Shown piece by piece: positions 2,062 to 29,561 of a stretch of DNA of 36,556 nt (the first letter of the stretch is position 1; every line of letters begins with the position of its first letter). The DNA comes from a virus, in IMG/VR virus record IMGVR_UViG_3300040751_002094, positions 1-36,556 of that record. One strand, given 5' to 3'. The position numbers and the translations under genes were made by a program. Under the pieces are notes generated by a model. The model saw only the letters and a list, made by a program, of their open reading frames with translations, ran no database searches and was not told the origin of the DNA.

Positions 2062-2541
2062 TTAATTGCAAGCGTACTGGGTGTCATATTTATACAGCTT
2101 GTATCTTTTTACAATCTTTGTGATCTTTTTCCAGTATCCTGCCTCCCCATATCCCTCAAGAGTTTCGTAAAACTCCCAAGACTGGTGCATTGCATTGGGG
2201 TAGTAGTTAGCAATGAAAGCGGCATGATCCAACCAACTAAGCCCGACATTGTCATAAGCTCTCCAGCAGCCCGACTTTGAATAGTATCGCTCTCCTTCCC
2301 AATCATCTCCGCATCTGATGCCAAAGTGATTGCATGAGTTTTGCGCTATGTTCGACCGTCCTGCTCCGCTCTCATAGATGGCTTGAGCAAATTGGATCGA
2401 CACTGGGATGCCGTATGCTCGTTCTAGTTCTTGCGCCTTAAATAGATGCTCGTCAATATAAGCTTGATAGCTTGACGGAATGATAAAACTCTCTAATAAG
2501 AGAATACAGATGATACAGATGATTAAAATTGTTATTCTCAT
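2062..2541 (-). CDS. Membrane-anchored glucosaminidase (GH73-like endolysin, 159 aa)
   Basis: Cleaves the glycan backbone of peptidoglycan, by family. Residues 1-22 are a signal peptide or signal anchor (MRITILIICIICILLLESF). The body has the GH73 signature: GIPVSIQFAQAIYESGAGRS with the expected catalytic Glu57, then NHFGIRC, and later LSWLDHAAF and YWKKITKIV. At 159 residues it is a minimal catalytic domain without cell-wall binding modules. The N-terminal hydrophobic helix suggests export by the host Sec system (SAR-type endolysin) rather than dependence on a holin. Its ATG overlaps the ATPase stop by four bases (ATGA), so it is co-translated with a replication gene. Confidence 0.88.
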   Translation of the reverse strand: MRITILIICIICILLLESFIIPSSYQAYIDEHLFKAQELERAYGIPVSIQFAQAIYESGAGRSNIAQNSCNHFGIRCGDDWEGERYYSKSGCWRAYDNVGLSWLDHAAFIANYYPNAMHQSWEFYETLEGYGEAGYWKKITKIVKRYKLYKYDTQYACN

Positions 2542-4247
2542 TCTATTATATTTTTTATTGGGATCATAAGACCAGAACCTTGCACCCCTGCTGAATAGTA
2601 TTTATTTTTCTTGTATGCTTGCGCTCCCTCCAATCTACCCAAGACAGTTCTGTGACTTGAGGCCCATGCTGTCTTTTTTAATCGCTCGCTTATCCAGGAG
2701 GAAGTATTGAGCAAAAATAAGAATTGAGTGCCTGCTTTGTCATTGTCAACCATTAGCCCCAAACGTCTGAGCCTTTTATTGGCTTCCTTGAATGGGATCG
2801 CTCCATCCATATTGACACAACACTCAACTAGCTCACCCACTGTCAAAGTCCCAAAGAACTCACCATCAATCTTGACCTCCGCACTAAGTAAGTGCTGCAA
2901 GCATCTTTGTTCGTCACTCTCCCTCTGTCCAGTTGATTTGCTCATCTGGTCAGAGACTGCTGCCTCGGCTAAAATCTGAGCATCCTCAAAAGGGATCACT
3001 GCATCTTGAGATATATGCCAATAGCCTGCGAGCATGCCCCCAAGCTGATCGCCTAGCGCTCTGTTTTTGCTGTAATTTGCAACAGCGTTGGTGCAGATCT
3101 CAATTGACTTCAAAATATTAGGCATGTTCAATATCATTCTAGCCTGGAAGCGTTTTGCAAAATCGTCCGTGATCGTCTCAACTCGTTTCTTGTCAAGCTC
3201 TAAAAAAGCGGACTGGCTACTCATTCTCTTAAGCTCGAATAAAGTGATACGTCTAAAATCACTGCCATGCTCCATCTGTGGCACGATTGAGGCAAAAGCA
3301 AAGCAGCTTCGAATCATAAAGGACTTACTCTGACCAGTAGCAGAGCCCTTCAGGACTTCCGCACCTTGACTGGCTGATGCTGCTCTCATCAATCCCATGA
3401 CGTTCTGCATACGAGCATAAGCTTGCTCATTCTCTGCCTCTGCCTCGTCAAAAATCACATTCAAAGCATCGAGTCTCAGCTTTTGTCTAACTCCTGCCTC
3501 TGTTGAGTTACCTTGCACAGATATAGAGATGTTGTTTATCATCTTTCTAATGATATTGTCAAAGGTCCAGGACTTACCCGTACCAGTTCCCCCAGTTATC
3601 CATATATGAGGACGCCAAGGCAAGACTCCACAAAGCGGAGCGATAGCCAACCACCCTGCAAGCAGCTCCCCATCATGAGTCCCCTCCCAATTTATGGCGG
3701 TTAGTATGTCCACCATTTTGCTCGCTTCTTTTCCAGTCAATGGGTCAGAGACATCGATATCAAGGTTTTTGCCTAGCTCATAAATGTATTGCGTTTCTCT
3801 TTCACCTAGTCCAGACTCCTGCCCATCTATTATCAAAGTTGTGCCGGTATGGATCACAACCTTGTCCCCATCTAACCAAGCCCCACGGCCTCTAATCATA
3901 TCCTCCTGAAAGATGCCGCGATGATTGCAAAGTCTACACAACAGATCTGCTGCTTTTACATTGTCCCATCCTCCTTTATCTTTAGCAAAAGCATACTCCC
4001 AAAAATCCAAAGGCGCAAGCATAATGAGATTGAGCTTTGAAAATTGCGAGGAGGTTAGTCTGATAATCGTATTAGAGCCCTTCACGAAAAAATAAAAGGC
4101 TTGCACTCCTTTCTCATCCTTGTTGAATCCAAGCGGCTTGAAATACCCAGAGATATAGCCCGACGCATCGGGACGCAATGACACCTCAGTTGGCTGCCGC
4201 TGGTCTCCAGTTGGCTCATTGTGGCCTAAGTCATTAAGTGTTATCAT
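2538..4247 (-). CDS. DUF927-like P-loop ATPase, putative replicative helicase (569 aa)
   Basis: Residues 219-226 read GGTGTGKS (Walker A) and 263-270 read NVIFDEAE (Walker B, acidic pair D267/E268). Between them lies the STEAGVRQKLRLDAL segment seen in DUF927-type ATPases of plasmids and phages. The arrangement WRPHIWITGG...GKSWTFD followed by an Arg-rich segment (FRRITLFELKR) fits a hexameric AAA+/SF3-like motor. The N-terminal 180 residues resemble the accessory region of primase-helicases, but I see no clear primase motif. The likely role is unwinding during phage DNA replication. It overlaps the glucosaminidase gene by four bases and follows a 58-aa gene by three. Confidence 0.75.
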   Translation of the reverse strand: MITLNDLGHNEPTGDQRQPTEVSLRPDASGYISGYFKPLGFNKDEKGVQAFYFFVKGSNTIIRLTSSQFSKLNLIMLAPLDFWEYAFAKDKGGWDNVKAADLLCRLCNHRGIFQEDMIRGRGAWLDGDKVVIHTGTTLIIDGQESGLGERETQYIYELGKNLDIDVSDPLTGKEASKMVDILTAINWEGTHDGELLAGWLAIAPLCGVLPWRPHIWITGGTGTGKSWTFDNIIRKMINNISISVQGNSTEAGVRQKLRLDALNVIFDEAEAENEQAYARMQNVMGLMRAASASQGAEVLKGSATGQSKSFMIRSCFAFASIVPQMEHGSDFRRITLFELKRMSSQSAFLELDKKRVETITDDFAKRFQARMILNMPNILKSIEICTNAVANYSKNRALGDQLGGMLAGYWHISQDAVIPFEDAQILAEAAVSDQMSKSTGQRESDEQRCLQHLLSAEVKIDGEFFGTLTVGELVECCVNMDGAIPFKEANKRLRRLGLMVDNDKAGTQFLFLLNTSSWISERLKKTAWASSHRTVLGRLEGAQAYKKNKYYSAGVQGSGLMIPIKNIIE

Positions 4248-7738: not shown

Positions 7739-7995
7739 GAAATTTCTCTTTTTCTGCTTTTTAATAAGTTTTTAAATTTTTGAAACCTCTTCCATTGAAG
7801 TTTTATGTATTCATTTGAGTATGGAAATTCTAAGGTTGTCGCCTCGTATCCTAAATAATTTATAAAATCATTATACTCATAACTATTGACATCTTTTGCA
7901 ATAGTGATATACCCATTAGTGTTTTCTTTGTGGATATTATTTGCATTGTGCCAAAATGCGCCTTTTTTAGCATTGTATTCTAAAGTAAAATTCAT
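7735..7995 (-). CDS. Hypothetical protein (86 aa)
   Basis: Begins MNFTLEYNAKKGAFWHN and ends in a basic helix (WKRFQKFKNLLKSRKREIS). The Tyr/Asn-rich first two thirds look like a mixed alpha-beta fold. ATGA overlaps at both ends place it in the operon directly after the helicase. No homologue recognised. Confidence 0.65.
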   Translation of the reverse strand: MNFTLEYNAKKGAFWHNANNIHKENTNGYITIAKDVNSYEYNDFINYLGYEATTLEFPYSNEYIKLQWKRFQKFKNLLKSRKREIS

Positions 7996-9536
7996 TTTAA
8001 CTTAGGTTTTAAACTCATGAATGTATTATATTTTTTTGTGATCGCTCGATCAAGGGCTTGCTCGCTTACTGTGTCCCATTGCATCAACTCCCAATGATTT
8101 TGAAATTTTACAAGCTTATTCTTATCTGATCCACAAGCTTTGTACTCCTTCAGGACTTTGCTCTTAAACTTAAATAAAATCCATCCCTTTTTATATCCTC
8201 GATCTTTTGCTATCTCATACAACTCTGTCAAGCTTCCTGCTCTGCCCACTTGCATGCGCTTTTGCTTTTTCTCCTCGATCTTTTGAGCCTCCTCAAGTGT
8301 GACCTCTTTCAGCTCCCCGTCTACCTTACTCAATACTCTCTTTTTCTTCTCTACTGGCGTGCCGCATTCAGGACAAACATCTGCAGGCAGAAAAACAGCA
8401 TAGCACTCTTTGCACTCTGACACCTTGATATCTGCCTCCTCTGTTTGGCCTTTGCGCACTTTCTTCTTAGTCATGTCCAGACTCCACTGCCTGTCTTGTG
8501 CAGGATGTCCGTGTCTTTGGAAGTTGCCGACATGGTCTAGTATTATCGGTCTAGGCTTGCCCTCCCCAGATCTTGCTCGGCCTACCATCTGCAAGTATAA
8601 GCTTAAACTGTGGGTAGGTCTTAGCTGAATCACACATCCAATCGCTGAGATATCAGTCCCCTCACTAATTAAGTTGCAGGAGCAGACAAGATCAATGTCA
8701 CCATTCTCCAATGCTTTGAGCCTTTTATCAATCTCCTCCTCACTTAAAGAAGATGCTACCCATGTCGCACGATAACCAGCTTGCTCAAATTCCCAAGCAA
8801 CTTGCTTGCAATGTTCTACAGATATGCAAAACGCTACAGCAGGACGTCCCTCTGCTTTTGCCTTGTACTCTGCAATGACATTGCCTGTAATAGTTGACCT
8901 ATTGACAGCTCGCTCTAGCTCCTTAGTGTTAAAGTCTCCCATGCTAGTACTAATGTTGGTCAAGTCTAAAAGAGTCTCTGGCTGATAAACTATAGGGACT
9001 TTAAATAGTCCTAACTCAACTAGGTCTAAAACCGATGGGCCTAAAACCATATGCTCAAAGAAGTCTCCCAAGCCTCTGCCATCCAAACGGCAAGGTGTAG
9101 CGGTCACGCCTAAGAAATAAGCGTCTTTGAAGTAGTCAAATAGAAAAGCCCACTGATCAGCTGCTGCATGATGGGCCTCATCCATGATGACCAGGTCTGC
9201 ATCTAAGCCTAACGTCCCCTTAGCTAATCTCAATGCAATAGTCTGCACAGAGCAAACTTGAGCTGACTGGCTTAGGTCGTTTTTGATGTTGCCTTTTATA
9301 AGTCCATGAGGGATACCAAACATGGTAAAACTATTACTTATTTGATTAAAAATAGTTTTCTTATGTCCTGTCGCTACTATCCACTTTCCTTTATCAAATG
9401 CCTTTTTGGCCATGTGAGAAAATGTAAAAGTCTTCCCAGATCCTGTAGGCATAACAAGCAGTACACGCTTATGTCCTTTTTTATATGCAGCCCTTATGTC
9501 CTGCATCGCTTTTAGTTGGTATTCTCTTGGCTTCAT
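7992..9536 (-). CDS. SF2 DNA helicase with zinc ribbon (514 aa)
   Basis: An ATP-dependent helicase of the type III restriction/DEAD superfamily. Numbered from MKPREYQ: Q motif REYQLKAM, Walker A MPTGSGKT (29-36), DEAH (119-122), TAT (145-147), ISEGTDI near 290, motif VI QMVGRAR (316-322). A four-Cys ribbon follows at C375, C378, C388 and C391 (CKECYAVFLPADVCPECG). The start at 9536 is preferred because it overlaps the previous stop as ATGA and fits family N-termini; an ATG at 9563 would add nine residues. With VRR-NUC and YqaJ it forms a likely recombination/replication set. Confidence 0.9.
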   Translation of the reverse strand: MKPREYQLKAMQDIRAAYKKGHKRVLLVMPTGSGKTFTFSHMAKKAFDKGKWIVATGHKKTIFNQISNSFTMFGIPHGLIKGNIKNDLSQSAQVCSVQTIALRLAKGTLGLDADLVIMDEAHHAAADQWAFLFDYFKDAYFLGVTATPCRLDGRGLGDFFEHMVLGPSVLDLVELGLFKVPIVYQPETLLDLTNISTSMGDFNTKELERAVNRSTITGNVIAEYKAKAEGRPAVAFCISVEHCKQVAWEFEQAGYRATWVASSLSEEEIDKRLKALENGDIDLVCSCNLISEGTDISAIGCVIQLRPTHSLSLYLQMVGRARSGEGKPRPIILDHVGNFQRHGHPAQDRQWSLDMTKKKVRKGQTEEADIKVSECKECYAVFLPADVCPECGTPVEKKKRVLSKVDGELKEVTLEEAQKIEEKKQKRMQVGRAGSLTELYEIAKDRGYKKGWILFKFKSKVLKEYKACGSDKNKLVKFQNHWELMQWDTVSEQALDRAITKKYNTFMSLKPKLK

Positions 9537-9775
9537 ATATTGTGTTGACTTGATGAGCCCCATCCAATCTGTTTTGGTTCGGGCGTCGGTTTAGGTTTAG
9601 GGTTTGTTAACTCTTCCAATCTTGCCAGTATCTGAAAATACTTGATAACATTCTTGGGCAATCCTCTGCGCTTCCAAGCATACCAAGTGTCTTTTGTCAT
9701 TATACCCTCATAGATTTTTGAAGTTGTGATGTCGTTGGTCTCAAGCTCTTGGTTGATGTCCTCGATCGTTTTCAT
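9533..9775 (-). CDS. Putative HTH-type small regulator (80 aa)
   Basis: The segment ITTSKIYEGIMTKDTWYAWKRRGLPKNVIKY has the look of a helix-turn-helix: a short helix, a turn, then a recognition-like helix with Trp and Lys/Arg. A Pro/Lys tail follows. An alternative ATG at 9793 adds six residues. It is the second gene of the leftward operon, a place where phages often keep regulators. The DNA-binding call rests on the pattern only. Confidence 0.6.
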   Translation of the reverse strand: MKTIEDINQELETNDITTSKIYEGIMTKDTWYAWKRRGLPKNVIKYFQILARLEELTNPKPKPTPEPKQIGWGSSSQHNI

Positions 9776-9971
9776 AGATGTAAAATTTATCATTTGATTG
9801 AATATGCTTAAACTTGATCTTATACATATATTGTATAGAATCGTAAAAGTCTAGCATGTTGTTGATCTGCTCCTGGTACTCTTCAGGAGTAGGGGCATAA
9901 ATTGCAACCTCTTGAGGCTGCTTATCTGTCTGAAATGCTAATAATAGCAAAAACAAAAATACATTTTTCAT
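9741..9971 (-). CDS. Small exported protein, first gene of the leftward operon (76 aa)
   Basis: Residues 1-13 (MKNVFLFLLLLAF) are a classical short signal sequence and no lipobox Cys follows. The rest, QEVAIYAPTPEEYQEQINNM onward, is soluble and Tyr-rich. The ATG lies about 20 bases past the expected transcription start of the 9995-10025 promoter, so this is the first protein made from the operon and it goes to the envelope. A cell-surface function such as superinfection exclusion is plausible but unproven. It overlaps the next gene by about 35 bp. Confidence 0.65.
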   Translation of the reverse strand: MKNVFLFLLLLAFQTDKQPQEVAIYAPTPEEYQEQINNMLDFYDSIQYMYKIKFKHIQSNDKFYIYENDRGHQPRA

Positions 9972-9994
9972 AAACTTGGTTTTTAGTTACTATA

Positions 9995-10025
9995 CAAATA
10001 TATGAAAACAAACAGACAAAAACAA
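9995..10025 (-). promoter_or_regulatory. Bacteroidota-type promoter of the main leftward operon
   Basis: On the minus strand, TTG (10025-10023), 20 bases, TATATTTG (10002-9995). It sits in the extended 43-base block shared with the 1488-1530 promoter. Its -33 box is only 8 bases from that of the divergent rightward promoter, so the two may compete or share a regulator. Confidence 0.88.
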
Positions 10026-10033
10026 GAAAATAG

Positions 10034-10064
10034 TTGCTTTATTCATAAATTTGTCATATATTTG
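10034..10064 (+). promoter_or_regulatory. Bacteroidota-type promoter of the recombination genes
   Basis: TTG at 10034-10036, a 20-base spacer, TATATTTG at 10057-10064. The first ATG is at 10097, leaving a leader of roughly 25 bases with no Shine-Dalgarno sequence. Same geometry as the two leftward promoters. Confidence 0.88.
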
Positions 10065-10096
10065 TATTATTAGATAACCAAATAACTATTTTTCTT

Positions 10097-10615
10097 ATGA
10101 AAACTCATTATCGAAAAGCTTACAAGTCGGATCACTTAGGTACGGCAGATTTAGAGGACTACATTGAGCAAGGTAGAGTCCTTAATTTTGTAATTGCTCA
10201 CGTAAAATATGAACAAGGTGCAACCGTAGCAGGTCGCAAAGGAGACTTTAATATTGCATACTTTAAAGATAAGAAAGTAAAGCCTCTTGTCTTAAATGCT
10301 ACCAATGCCGCAATGATTAAAAAGTTTTGCAAATCTTCATTCTTAGAGGATTGGACTAATGTCCCTATCACTCTATACATTAAGGAGGGTATTAGAAACC
10401 CTGGAACAGGTGAAAAAGGTGGAGCGGTACGCATTAGCCCAGTGCAACCACAAATCAAAAAGCCTAAACTGCACAGAGAGCATCCTCAATGGAGCGAGGT
10501 AGAGGAGAAGGTCAAAAGTGGGACAGCTAACCTGGAAACAATCAAAAAGTACTTTGATCTCAACAGAGTAGATGAGGACTATCTCAAAAATCTAAAATTA
10601 AAAACTGATGCCTAA
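10097..10615 (+). CDS. Putative ssDNA-binding/annealing partner of YqaJ (172 aa)
   Basis: First gene of the two-gene rightward unit, overlapping the YqaJ exonuclease gene by 8 bp. The N-terminal domain (HLGTADLEDY, VLNFVIAHVKYEQG, GDFNIAYFKDKKVKPLVLNATNA) looks like a compact alpha-beta fold. A Pro/Lys linker (QPQIKKPKLHREHPQW) and a C-terminal helical segment (IKKYFDLNRVDEDYL) follow; similar tails occur in phage recombination-associated proteins as I recall them. Exonuclease genes of this type usually travel with an annealing protein or SSB. The assignment is by context; no catalytic motif is present. Confidence 0.6.
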   Translation: MKTHYRKAYKSDHLGTADLEDYIEQGRVLNFVIAHVKYEQGATVAGRKGDFNIAYFKDKKVKPLVLNATNAAMIKKFCKSSFLEDWTNVPITLYIKEGIRNPGTGEKGGAVRISPVQPQIKKPKLHREHPQWSEVEEKVKSGTANLETIKKYFDLNRVDEDYLKNLKLKTDA

Positions 10616-11247: not shown

Positions 11248-11278
11248 AGCCCCTGCAATCTAGGTGGGGGCTATTTTT
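11248..11278 (+). terminator. Terminator of the recombination unit
   Basis: Stem AGCCCC (11248-11253) with GGGGCT (11267-11272), a 13-base loop, then ATTTTT. Just upstream (11215-11236) is a short direct repeat GTTCTTATA. Confidence 0.85.
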
Positions 11279-11299
11279 AAAAACTTAAATCAAACTGTA

Positions 11300-11737
11300 A
11301 TGAAAAATTTATTTTTGCTTTTTGCCCTTTCATTTGTATTCGAATCTTGCAACAAAACTGAAACTATAAACCCAGTGGAGGAGGATGTCATTATCACAAC
11401 CCATCAAGAAGGCAGCAAAGTCTTGTACACTATCACTGTAAATTTTGGAGCTGGAGACTGTGCAGGCAACGGCAAAACATGGAACAAACTCCAAAACGAA
11501 CTAAACGCAATTTTTGCCAACAATGGTACTAATATGGCACTAGTGCAAGTCACTGGTCACGATTGGGAAGGTGGAAACCTTTGCAATTGCAGAGCAAACA
11601 AAGCATTGCAAGAATTTAACCGATGGGCAGCCACTAAAGGAGTGGGGCAGTCTTTTGGAATCACAACTTGTCAAACGCATATTCATTCCGGTCCTCAAAA
11701 CCAAGTTGCTGTTTTAGAGATCGACGCATTTTTATAA
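11300..11737 (+). CDS. Predicted lipoprotein, moron-like (145 aa)
   Basis: Starts MKNLFLLFALSFVFESC, a type II signal peptide with lipobox-like FESC and lipidated Cys17; the upstream ATG-like reading from 11264 overlaps the terminator and is rejected. The mature part has four further Cys (GDCAGNG, CNCRA, TTCQTH) that could form two disulfides, and a beta-rich C-terminus (QVAVLEIDAF). The gene stands alone between two strong terminators and is not part of a structural or replication operon. This is typical of a phage moron acting at the host surface, for example in receptor blocking. No family recognised. Confidence 0.75.
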   Translation: MKNLFLLFALSFVFESCNKTETINPVEEDVIITTHQEGSKVLYTITVNFGAGDCAGNGKTWNKLQNELNAIFANNGTNMALVQVTGHDWEGGNLCNCRANKALQEFNRWAATKGVGQSFGITTCQTHIHSGPQNQVAVLEIDAFL

Positions 11738-11758: not shown

Positions 11759-11790
11759 AGCCTTCAGGAGTCTCCTGGGGGCTTTTTTTT
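11759..11790 (+). terminator. Terminator after the lipoprotein gene
   Basis: An 11-bp stem AGCCTTCAGGA/TCCTGGGGGCT (two G-T pairs) with loop GTC, followed by seven or more Ts. The last Ts form part of the TAA stop codon of the convergent gene 11789-12097, so the two genes abut with no spare base. Confidence 0.9.
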
Positions 11791-12097
11791 ATTCAGTTTT
11801 ATTCAGCTTTGCATCATCTGCAATGTCACTCAAGAACTTTTGAGCCATTAAATAAAATTCACTGTTTTGATCGTCTGGGCTCTCATTGTTCAAATAAATT
11901 GCAATATCCATCAAAGCTCTTGCTATTGATTTCTTGACATCTCTCACAGATCCATTGGGCTCAATTGAGTCATTATAAACTTGATCTATTCCCATTCTAA
12001 ATAAATCGCTTTTTGAGATGTTCAAAGAGTTGCACAGAAAAACAATCTTTTGCTCAGTTTGATAGTCTACTCTGAAAATTTGCTTCTTAAATTTCAT
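11789..12097 (-). CDS. Ribbon-helix-helix-like regulator (102 aa)
   Basis: The start chosen is MKFKKQIFRVDYQTEQKIVF at 12097. The first 45 residues fit an RHH protein: a basic beta strand (KKQIFRVD), helix (EQKIVFLCNSL), a turn (NISKSD) and a second helix (LFRMGIDQVY). The C-terminal half is acidic and helical. It reads away from the 12198-12497 repeat region, with its own promoter at 12142-12149 overlapping sequence repeated at the late promoter. A role as autorepressor and regulator of late transcription is inferred from this layout. The RHH call is from pattern only. Confidence 0.7.
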   Translation of the reverse strand: MKFKKQIFRVDYQTEQKIVFLCNSLNISKSDLFRMGIDQVYNDSIEPNGSVRDVKKSIARALMDIAIYLNNESPDDQNSEFYLMAQKFLSDIADDAKLNKTE

Positions 12098-12141
12098 TTG
12101 CTTTATATTTTTATATTTCGGTCGCGATCTTGCGATATATA

Positions 12142-12172
12142 CAAAGATACTGCAATGTATGTACAAAAGTAC
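12142..12172 (-). promoter_or_regulatory. Promoter/operator region of the RHH-like gene
   Basis: On the minus strand a -7 box TATCTTTG (12149-12142) lies 45 bases before the ATG. No TTG is found at the 20-base spacing, so it may be weak or need an activator. It overlaps the 13-mer TTGCAGTATCTTT (12155-12143) that recurs at the late promoter. A palindrome GTACTTTTGTAC lies at 12161-12172 and a direct repeat GCGAT-CTT-GCGAT at 12124-12136. Confidence 0.6.
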
Positions 12173-12500
12173 TTTTTTAGCTAAGTTTTCTATTAAATTA
12201 AGGGGATTTCCTTAAATCCTTAAGCGTCCTTAAAGCGTTTTAAGGGCTATTTTAAGGTCGAAACGCCCACCACCACTAAATTTGCGCATTTCCTTAAAGA
12301 ATTGGCTAAAACATATTAGAATATAAAAGTAGATACTAATATCAAGACACTAATCTCATATACATATCTTATTATTATTAAGTTTTTAAGATTATTATTA
12401 TTATTATTATAGAACGCCCACTATCACTAGGTTTTTCGTCCTTAAATTTTCCTTAAAAATACCCTTAATTTCCTTAAATTCGCTTATTTCTTTAAGGTTT
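12173..12500. other. Non-coding iteron-like region, candidate replication origin and/or packaging site
   Basis: No gene is seen here. There are 12 copies of CCTTAA or its complement TTAAGG. Seven lie at 12198, 12210, 12218, 12228, 12240, 12252 and 12292; five at 12440, 12451, 12463, 12472 and 12492, mostly 8-12 bases apart. Two imperfect direct repeats of about 35 bases, starting AACGCCCAC and ending at a CCTTAA, lie at 12262-12298 and 12413-12446. Between the blocks is an AT-rich stretch with (ATT)n at 12371-12380 and 12391-12410. Iterons around an AT-rich core suggest an origin; the place just before terS would also suit TerS binding. Confidence 0.65.
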
Positions 12501-12536
12501 TTGCTTTTTACACTAGTTTGCAGTATCTTTATACTG
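12501..12536 (+). promoter_or_regulatory. Late promoter with overlapping palindromic operator
   Basis: TTG (12501-12503), 20 bases, TATCTTTA (12524-12531): same geometry as the early promoters but with a last-base mismatch in the -7 box. The perfect inverted repeat CAGTAT-CTTT-ATACTG (12521-12536) covers the -7 box, so a bound protein would block or remodel initiation. The 13-mer at 12518-12530 is identical to that at the RHH-gene promoter. Confidence 0.75.
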
Positions 12537-12537
12537 T

Positions 12538-12631
12538 AAGAAAAATAGTGTTTCTTTTATAAGGAATTTGGTTTAGTTATTGATTAGAGAGTGAGCGGTT
12601 GTAAGGGAAGCCGCTCGCTTTTCTTTTTTTT
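12538..12631 (+). ncRNA. Possible short leader RNA ending at the pre-terS terminator
   Basis: A transcript from the 12501-12531 promoter would begin near 12538 and reach a strong terminator at 12591-12631 before any gene. It would be an RNA of about 90 nt unless read-through occurs. No ORF of note lies within it. It may be a leader for antitermination or a small RNA in its own right; the sequence alone cannot tell. Confidence 0.35.
12591..12631 (+). terminator. Strong terminator between the late promoter and terS
   Basis: An 8-bp stem GTGAGCGG (12591-12598) with CCGCTCGC (12611-12618), one G-T pair and a 12-base loop, followed by a T-rich tract TTTTCTTTTTTTT. It lies 33 bases before terS, so late transcription must pass it. 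Confidence 0.85.
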
Positions 12632-12664
12632 GAACTGGGGCAGGATTTTTGATGTTTTAACAAT

Positions 12665-13093
12665 ATGGCATATAATACAAACGAACTAGAAAAACAAGCC
12701 CTTGAGGCAATCAAGGAGCATGGGCTCATCTTCATTGAGGAGGTAGTGAGCTTTTTGCCATGTTCTAAGCCCACATTCTACGAGCATGGACTTAACGAAC
12801 TTGACTCTATAAAAGAGGCTATAAACTTTAACAAAGTATCTAAGAAGGCGAAACTGCGCAAGAACTGGGAGCAATCAGAGAATGCAACACTAAACATCTC
12901 CTTATATAAACTCTTGGCTAATGAGGAGGAGTTAATGAGGCTATCAGTGCAGAAGATCCACCAGGAGACAAAGCAAGAGACAAAGCACTCCATTGACTTT
13001 AATAAATTAACAGACGAGCAGCTAGATGAATACCTTAGAGTTACAAAAGGAATACTTGAGAGCGGTAAGGGAGAAAGCGAGGAGGAGCTTTGA
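12665..13093 (+). CDS. terS: Terminase small subunit (142 aa)
   Basis: Recognises phage DNA and loads the large subunit for packaging. Assigned by position directly upstream of and overlapping terL, by size, and by an N-terminal helical region resembling an HTH (LEAIKEHGLIFIEEVVSFLPCSKPTFYEHG). A helical middle and an acidic C-terminus (ESGKGESEEEL) follow, as in other TerS proteins. The nearby repeats are a possible binding site. It overlaps terL by 68 bp. Confidence 0.82.
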   Translation: MAYNTNELEKQALEAIKEHGLIFIEEVVSFLPCSKPTFYEHGLNELDSIKEAINFNKVSKKAKLRKNWEQSENATLNISLYKLLANEEELMRLSVQKIHQETKQETKHSIDFNKLTDEQLDEYLRVTKGILESGKGESEEEL

Positions 13094-14456
13094 GCAGTTT
13101 GTCCTGATAACTAAGCCAGATTACAAACTTAACTGGCATCACAAGCTCTTGATGAGCAAGCTCCAAGCATTTGCAGAGGGTAAGATCAAAAAAATGATGG
13201 TTTTTATGCCTCCACAGCATGGCAAGAGTGAGCTGACAAGTAGGAGACTCCCCTCATATATCTTGGGGATCAATCCAAATGCAAAGATAGCAGGATGCTC
13301 CTATGCAGCAGATCTGTCTAAAAGTTTTAACAGGGATGTACAGAGAATAATTGAGGATGATGCTTATAGTGGGATTTTTCCCAATACTAGACTAAACTCC
13401 TCAAATGTAAAGAGCTCAGCAAAAGGGAGCTATCTGAGGAATGCAGATATTTTTGAGGTTGTGGGATATAGTGGCTTTTATAAGTCTGTAGGTGTGGGGG
13501 GATCTCTCACAGGGACTCCAGTGGATATCGGTCTCATTGATGATCCTGTCAAAGATGTAGTGGAGGCTAATAGTGCGACATATAGAGCGAGGGTGTGGGA
13601 CTGGTTTACAGGAGTCTTTTTGACTCGTCTACATAATGACTCACAGATCCTGATCACTCAGACTAGATGGCATGAGGATGATCTCAGTGGGAGGATCTTA
13701 AAAAGCAAGCAAGCTCATGAGTGGGAGATATTAACACTCCCAGGCATATTGGAGACAGATGACAAGCATGAGGATGATCCCAGACAGATTGGAGAGGCTC
13801 TGTGGGCTGATAGACATAGTTTAAAAAAGTTGCTTGATTTTAGGGATGCAAGTCCGAGACTATTCCAAGCAATGTATCAGCAAGATCCTAGGCCTTTCGA
13901 GGGTGGTCTTGTTTATCCTAAATGGAGCAGCTGCAGTCTTCAGGACTATAAGATGGTCAGAATTGAAGAGATCAACGGGCTTGACTTTGGATACTCAACG
14001 AGCCCAGCGGCATTCATAGGAGTAAAGATTGACAAAGATGCAAAACGAATATATCTAAGGCTCAAGATCTATGGCAAGTTTATCAAGCTTAAGCAACTAG
14101 CGGAGCAGATGACAGACAAGTTGGATAGTGCTAGGCAGGAGATAATTGCAGATAGTGCGGACCCTCTGCTCATAGAGCATCTAAAAGGACAGTACAAAAT
14201 GAATGTACACAAAGCTATCAAAGGCAAGGACTCTGTGAGCTTTGGGATCACTCTTATGAATAACTTTGAGCTAGTTATTGTAGAGGAGGGAGGCGAGCCA
14301 TTGAAACGAGAACTAAAAAACTATAGATATAAAGAGGATGCCGATGGTAATCCTTTAGATGAGCCAGTCAAGGAGTATGACCATGCACTTGATGCCGCTC
14401 GTTATGTTGTACTTAAAAAACTAGGGCGAAAGGGCTCAAAATTTACTGTATTCTAA
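13026..14456 (+). CDS. terL: Terminase large subunit (476 aa)
   Basis: Packaging ATPase and nuclease. Walker A PPQHGKSE (from residue 62), Walker B IGLIDDP (168-174) and the coupling-type segment TQTRWHEDD (211-219). The RNase H-like nuclease has GLDFGYS (D320), IADSADP (D376/D379) and YDHALDAARY (D452/D456). Length and motif order are standard. The start at 13026 gives a normal N-terminus although it overlaps terS by 68 bp; no other ATG is available before residue 43. It ends in a TAATG overlap with the next gene. Confidence 0.95.
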   Translation: MNTLELQKEYLRAVREKARRSFEQFVLITKPDYKLNWHHKLLMSKLQAFAEGKIKKMMVFMPPQHGKSELTSRRLPSYILGINPNAKIAGCSYAADLSKSFNRDVQRIIEDDAYSGIFPNTRLNSSNVKSSAKGSYLRNADIFEVVGYSGFYKSVGVGGSLTGTPVDIGLIDDPVKDVVEANSATYRARVWDWFTGVFLTRLHNDSQILITQTRWHEDDLSGRILKSKQAHEWEILTLPGILETDDKHEDDPRQIGEALWADRHSLKKLLDFRDASPRLFQAMYQQDPRPFEGGLVYPKWSSCSLQDYKMVRIEEINGLDFGYSTSPAAFIGVKIDKDAKRIYLRLKIYGKFIKLKQLAEQMTDKLDSARQEIIADSADPLLIEHLKGQYKMNVHKAIKGKDSVSFGITLMNNFELVIVEEGGEPLKRELKNYRYKEDADGNPLDEPVKEYDHALDAARYVVLKKLGRKGSKFTVF

Positions 14457-29009: not shown

Positions 29010-29561
29010 ATGGGATCTATTACTAAAGGCTTTGCCGGTCAGGACTGTTCAAAAACTTGTCCCGGTGGTATTCGTCGCTTATGGGTTGCAAATGAGGATG
29101 ACATCACAAGCATCACGTTTGGAGCTAATGGTGAAGTTGACAGTTATGTCATGGCTTCAGGTACTAATTTTTATGAGATCAAGTTGAAGGTCAACACTAA
29201 GCAGCTCACAGAGGATGTGCAGGTGTCTGATGATGGTTGTACTCAGTCAGTAGTACAGACATTTGAGGGGATTGGTGGCTGTTGGGATCAAGATGTGCGC
29301 GACTTATTGCTTGAACTAGGCAAGCAGTCTTGTTGTGGTATCGTTGTTATCCATGAGGAGAACAGTGGTGAAACTGTGACTTGGGGCTACCTTGAAGACT
29401 TATATGCTCGTTTGGGTTCTGGTACTCAGACTGTAACTGGTGCAAACTTGACTGACCCTAACCAGTTCACTTTGCAGATCGTATGTACTACGACTTTAGA
29501 CGGATTGAAGACAACATTTACTCCAGGAGCGGCAGGCGTACCGATTACTCCAGCGCCTTAA
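29010..29561 (+). CDS. Major tail (tube) protein (183 aa)
   Basis: Starts MGSITKGFAGQDCSKTCPGG, followed by IRRLWVANEDDITSITFGAN, a pattern I recall from tail tube proteins of Bacteroidota phages. Size and beta-strand-rich centre (FYEIKLKVNTKQLTEDVQVS) fit a tube subunit. Seven Cys (13, 17, 77, 91, 108, 109, 159) are many for a protein assembled in the cytoplasm. A Pro-rich tail closes it. It is separated from the capsid gene by a hairpin and followed by a strong terminator. Confidence 0.75.
   Translation: MGSITKGFAGQDCSKTCPGGIRRLWVANEDDITSITFGANGEVDSYVMASGTNFYEIKLKVNTKQLTEDVQVSDDGCTQSVVQTFEGIGGCWDQDVRDLLLELGKQSCCGIVVIHEENSGETVTWGYLEDLYARLGSGTQTVTGANLTDPNQFTLQIVCTTTLDGLKTTFTPGAAGVPITPAP

Follow-up and report, generated by a model that had tools for sequence, protein, structure and literature searches.

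A repeat array upstream of terS as the probable origin of replication in a circularising tailed phage

The origins of PICIs are built from sets of iterons flanking an AT-rich melting region and follow a rep-ori order (PMC6092414), and the iterons are read by SaPI Rep and by Cch2 with a C-terminal domain (PMC7581432). For Cch2, which is encoded on a chromosomal cassette and not by a phage, only three iterons have been described. The P4 alpha protein, a helicase-type initiator fused to a Toprim primase, reads short repeats in ori and crr through a winged-helix domain (PMC4234260). A description of such an origin in tailed phages of the type considered here was not found in a search of open-access literature. 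The Sfi21-type origin of Streptococcus thermophilus phages is a short, repeat-rich non-coding element with origin activity, located beside helicase and primase genes; the locus described below resembles it, at the level of description, in being non-coding, rich in repeats, and associated with phage replication genes, but differs in host and in repeats.

The window, that is, the whole stretch of DNA analysed, comprises the 36,556 bp of a virus record, the two ends of which share a 156-bp overlap containing one mismatch. Because of this overlap, and because an amidase ORF (35965 to 170) is intact over the contig join, the record represents the whole genome, circular (or circularly permuted) and ~36.4 kb long, of a tailed phage. 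From ~10 kb the early genes point leftward, and from 12.6 kb the late genes point rightward; these include terS and terL as well as a long late operon. The initial annotation had recognised a single large non-coding stretch, and this was upheld (Table 1), the apparent gap at the contig ends being the amidase ORF. The array region had no DNA-level match in the phage collection and no match in Rfam. The repeat cluster in this stretch is very probably the site at which replication of the phage starts, and positions 12198-12497 can with good confidence be assigned to an origin of the SaPI/PICI type that would be opened by a D5-like helicase.

Table 1. Location of the repeat array, its parts, and the genes discussed in the text (positions in the window; hexamer sites are given by their first base)
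Feature	Position	Strand	Remarks
D5-like helicase, putative initiator (569 aa)	2538..4247	-	PHROG 35358; early operon, ~8 kb from array
SF2 (ResIII-type) helicase	7992..9563	-	early operon
Small HTH-like protein adjoining SF2 helicase	9533..9775	-	no family match; alternative candidate DNA binder
RHH-like repressor gene, left edge of array	11789..12097	-	PHROG 876 transcriptional repressor, E=1.5e-4 (weak match)
Non-coding stretch holding the array	12098-12664
Left iteron block, 7 sites	12198..12297		CCTTAA + at 12210, 12218, 12228, 12292; - at 12198, 12240, 12252
GC-rich element, copy 1, AACGCCCACCACCACTAAATTT	12262..12283	+	kept in phages with other iteron types
AT-rich core, ATTATTATTAAGT...(ATT)n	12298..12412		presumed DNA-unwinding element; string kept in L007/L068
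GC-rich element, copy 2, AACGCCCACTATCACTAGGTTT	12413..12434	+	related copy in L050
Right iteron block, 5 sites	12440..12497		CCTTAA + at 12440, 12451, 12463, 12472; - at 12492
Promoter-like TTG-N20-TATCTTTA for packaging/late operon	12501..12531	+	tentative; kept in L007, L008, L010, L068
GC-rich hairpin and T-run, intrinsic-terminator-like	12590..12631	+	between promoter and terS; RNA fold z ~ -3
terS and terL, downstream of array	12665..14456	+	terS exchanged in L010

The locus shares with SaPI/PICI origins two sets of short iterons around an AT-rich melting region, with a word that differs between elements, and a putative helicase initiator whose C-terminal DNA-binding domain matches in predicted fold. 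It differs in that SaPIs and PICIs are satellites, whereas the window is a full tailed phage with structural genes; in that the array lies immediately 3' of the initiator gene there but ~8 kb from it in the window, directly upstream of terS; in the sequence family of the putative initiator, which is PHROG 35358; and in an extra conserved pair of CGCCCAC elements. With P4 it would share a helicase-type initiator that reads short repeats, the winged-helix domain being modelled, but the window protein is without the N-terminal primase domain and no second, crr-like array was found in the window, as CCTTAA clusters only once in the genome. The closest structural match of nearly the whole window protein is Cch of SCCmec, and it is the C-terminal domain of Cch2 that binds iterons (PMC7581432). 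The design is a known one in variant form, placed in a complete tailed phage with the array apart from the initiator gene and upstream of terS.

The hexamer CCTTAA/TTAAGG occurs 27 times in the genome, and 12 of these sites fall inside 12198-12497. They had been described as two blocks with a spacing of mostly 8-12 bp, and the list of sites agrees, although gaps of 20 and 40 bp within the blocks make the spacing irregular. The iteron proper was delimited as 6-10 bp, TTCCTTAAA. Chance as a source of the cluster, which the initial annotation had named as grounds for giving it up, was not borne out: in 5000 dinucleotide shuffles of 12173-12500 the mean count was 0.78 and the maximum 6, the commonest hexamer of any kind never exceeded 6 in 2000 shuffles, and outside the array no 328 bp of the genome held more than 2 sites. 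The array is carried by the close relatives L009 (identical to the window), L010, L008, L007, and L068, and the repeats, whose absence from relatives would likewise have counted against them, were present in all close relatives covering the locus. Between the window and the divergent L007, 65 of 72 hexamer positions (90%) are identical, as against 162 of 238 (68%) in the rest of the array (p=1.2e-4), and this higher conservation at the hexamers than around them suggests that they are under selection. DnaA boxes (TTWTNCACA), which mark DnaA-dependent iteron plasmid origins, were absent from the array, although the Bacteroidota box may differ; the genome has three, no more than expected by chance, the nearest 1.2 kb away.

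Within the core, the ATT tract spans ~12369-12410. On each side of the core lies one copy of a GC-rich element starting AACGCCCAC; a paired direct repeat had been reported here, and the pair exists, but its length is 22 bp at 82% identity and not ~35 bp. The CGCCCAC-type pair remains constant while the iteron changes and, speculatively, may bind a second conserved factor. The string AACGCCCACCACCAYT was tried as a family marker and dropped, since most of its 19 hits were chance occurrences in GC-rich contigs.

GC skew, which had been proposed as a check, was computed at third codon positions after removal of the coding-strand bias. The skew axis fell 32-700 bp from the array in G009, G012, G014, and G030, the signal was of intermediate strength in G035 and G036 and missing from several other genomes, and the tests, combined by the method of Fisher with one genome per lineage, gave p=0.02. 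The signal was clear in some relatives but weak in the window, where the minimum and the array are 0.7 kb apart and the symmetric two-arm test was not significant (fraction 0.39). These profiles support, but do not prove, bidirectional replication from the array. In G030 (L461, array near 29386 of the record) a very strong skew switch was located 32 bp from the axis, with a polarity reversed relative to the other genomes.

The same place and layout were found with other iteron words. Phages L012-L025 and L032 (TerL 65-68% identical), and also L028, carry TGTAACA/TGTTACA instead of CCTTAA, and L011 (TerL 83% identical) carries TGTACAC. Across iteron types the core string ATTATTATTAAG persists, being retained in part in the TGTAACA group, as does the element CGCCCACCACCA in some genomes. 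The GC-rich element accompanies TGTAACA iterons in L028/L053 and L050 and, in reversed orientation, TGTACAC iterons in L011/L060. Helicase-anchored and D5-anchored searches added many unrelated phages, with words such as GTCACG (L160), GTAACG (L124), GTTACC (L307), TGTTGC (L317), GTTTAC (L322), TCCGCA (L319), CTAAACA (L085), GGCACA (L150), GCGGAC (L117), and AACCAACCT (L122). Alignment of the YqaJ exonuclease was rejected as an anchor, as the TGTAACA group has a non-homologous gene at that place. Arrays no further than 3-5 kb from the D5-like gene were present in one gut contig and five named isolates (Acinetobacter phage Acjo_20, Bdellovibrio phage phi1422, Synechococcus phage S-H1, Pararheinheimera phage KLER1-1, and Serratia phage MQ-4), while 7 of the 13 named records with a D5-like gene had none in the stretch read near it (3-5 kb). 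In seven distant lineages (L160, L124, L111, L444, L446, L449, and L315) the D5-like gene ends no more than ~100 bp before the array starts, which is the rep-ori order of PICIs. The same scan found no array in 14 unrelated control phage contigs; among viral contigs with a D5-like gene it flagged 24 of 79, and among bacterial contigs 12 of 80, with some doubtful hits. Hexamer-scan positives in L321, L306, L301, L311, L125, and L101 were discarded by eye as coding or tandem repeats, and a CCTTAA triple-iteron pattern intended to find origins of the CCTTAA type returned mostly unrelated repeats.

The design is seen, with many iteron words, in complete tailed phages that include named isolates, and this points to a pool of origins shared by phages and their satellites. 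It also provides a sequence rule by which phage origins can be sought in metagenomes, together with natural pairs on which initiator-iteron specificity can be tested. A single origin scaffold may be common to tailed phages with D5-type initiators, with the iteron word exchanged like a specificity cassette; this is a tentative proposal, held with less than even confidence. If it holds, close relatives (TerL 83% identical) would carry non-cross-reacting origins, perhaps avoiding incompatibility or hijack by satellites of the same origin design. Arrays were also observed beside another initiator family: in the P4-alpha-like prophages L358 (4006-4400) and L409 (6128-6520), TTAAGGG/CCCTTAACA arrays of the same origin design adjoin the primase-helicase gene. 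Similar arrays occur in the bacterial contigs L240 (11801-12200, TGACAC), L202 (14401-14800, GAGACA), and L164 (13001-13420, TGTCAC), which are probably prophages.

The D5-like protein of the window aligns only to positions 411-946 of the 968 of its PHROG profile, and a search of PDB sequences with the initiator profile returned nothing significant. Its AlphaFold model (pLDDT 88.7) matched best the SCCmec helicase Cch (5dgk; Z 16.7 over 424 residues, model residues 35-565) and SaPI5 PriRep at Z ~14.5, among MCM and D5-type helicases. The C-terminal domain (~residues 440-569), folded alone, reached a pLDDT of 94.6 and had as its best match among 1000 chains the C-terminus of SaPIbov1 Rep (8tch), at a weak Z of 5.6; the next matches were DNA-binding proteins that included several with a winged helix. 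Foldseek returned nothing below E 0.1 for this domain alone. In predicted fold the protein has the ATPase core and, by a weak match, the C-terminal DNA-binding domain of SaPI Rep-like initiators. According to the proposed mechanism, the helicase would bind the iterons through its C-terminal winged-helix-like domain and, being self-loading, assemble on both sides of the core, and would then melt the ATT-rich core for theta replication, as is thought for the SaPI Rep helicases and phage P4 alpha. Precedent, predicted fold, and gene adjacency point to the C-terminal domain of the D5-like helicase as the likely reader of the iterons. It was not identified as such by covariation, because the partial Mantel test of recognition-helix against iteron similarity in 21 lineages was negative (p 0.27-0.41). 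A recognition-helix 'code' noted by eye, in which the D5-like C-termini of phages with GTTACA iterons share an S-[Y/W] motif, was set aside, neither the Mantel nor the partial Mantel test over these lineages being significant.

The small HTH protein is a lesser candidate for the iteron reader. The array would still be an origin, but the HTH protein would read the iterons and recruit the neighbouring SF2 helicase, with the D5-like protein acting as replicative helicase only. L068 has both a CCTTAA array and the HTH gene, the TGTAACA genomes have a different HTH gene at the same place, and phage KLER1-1 is also annotated with a small HTH gene beside a helicase. This arrangement is nevertheless judged unlikely, as the ORF listings of the array-bearing phages L160 and L085 contain no such gene beside the helicase and the distant arrays adjoin the D5-like gene, not an HTH gene.

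The promoter-like sequences at both edges of the array and the terminator ahead of terS mean that the locus also houses transcription control. The putative late promoter abuts the last iteron, and its box is one base off the Bacteroidota -7 consensus. A strict Bacteroidota promoter pattern gave no matches and a looser one gave 13, and the promoters suggest a host among the Bacteroidota. A hairpin with T-run of different sequence occupies the same place in L007, L016, and L011, and, by analogy with lambda pR'-tR', the succession of promoter and hairpin before terS could be a late-gene attenuator, an antitermination site, or the source of a short RNA. Elsewhere in the window, at 9971-10097, two TTG-N-TATATTTG promoters with near-identical boxes stand back to back (10025 minus, 10034 plus), with a third at 1522.

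The promoters at the edges, together with the weak repressor match of the RHH gene, would also suit an operator array at which a phage regulator switches two divergent promoters, one for the RHH gene and one for the packaging/late operon. In L007 and L068, however, the CCTTAA array is kept although the RHH gene and left promoter are absent, and an exonuclease gene abuts it; the distant arrays adjoin initiator genes, not repressors; and 300 bp of array with a central AT core exceed what an operator needs. The operator function, to which the initial annotation had pointed from the neighbouring RHH-like gene, was not supported and is improbable.

The location directly upstream of terS-terL had further suggested a packaging initiation (pac/cos) site recognised by TerS. 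An array of this kind would be expected to travel with its TerS, and it does not: L010 retains the array beside an unrelated gene in place of terS, L050/L052 conversely have the window-type TerS beside TGTAACA iterons, and in L028 another gene intervenes between array and terS. A packaging site is very unlikely in view of this double dissociation. In L010 the exchange (1022-1432) is a clean swap of the terS module, the non-coding origin stretch retaining 93% identity (hexamers 99%) and TerL 93%. On comparison of these genomes the array is part of neither an RHH nor a TerS unit, being kept without the RHH gene (L007/L068) and with an unrelated TerS (L010), with L050/L052 showing the converse for TerS.

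A partition centromere (parS/parC-like) bound by the RHH protein, which the short repeats about one helical turn apart and the adjacent RHH-like gene recall, is hardly credible given the persistence of the array in L007 and L068 with no RHH gene beside it and given that no ParA/ParM-like gene was recognised among the proteins covered by an incidental scan. The replication-origin reading, put forward initially from the iterons and unwinding element, is supported by the two-block layout, by the single cluster, and by a scaffold that is kept while the word changes; the proposal that origin, packaging site, and operators coincide is not needed, because the latter two are unsupported. The gene adjoining the RHH gene (window 11264-11737) is lipoprotein-like; in L008 it ends differently but the shared terminator is still present, and its position is possibly a variable accessory (moron) slot.
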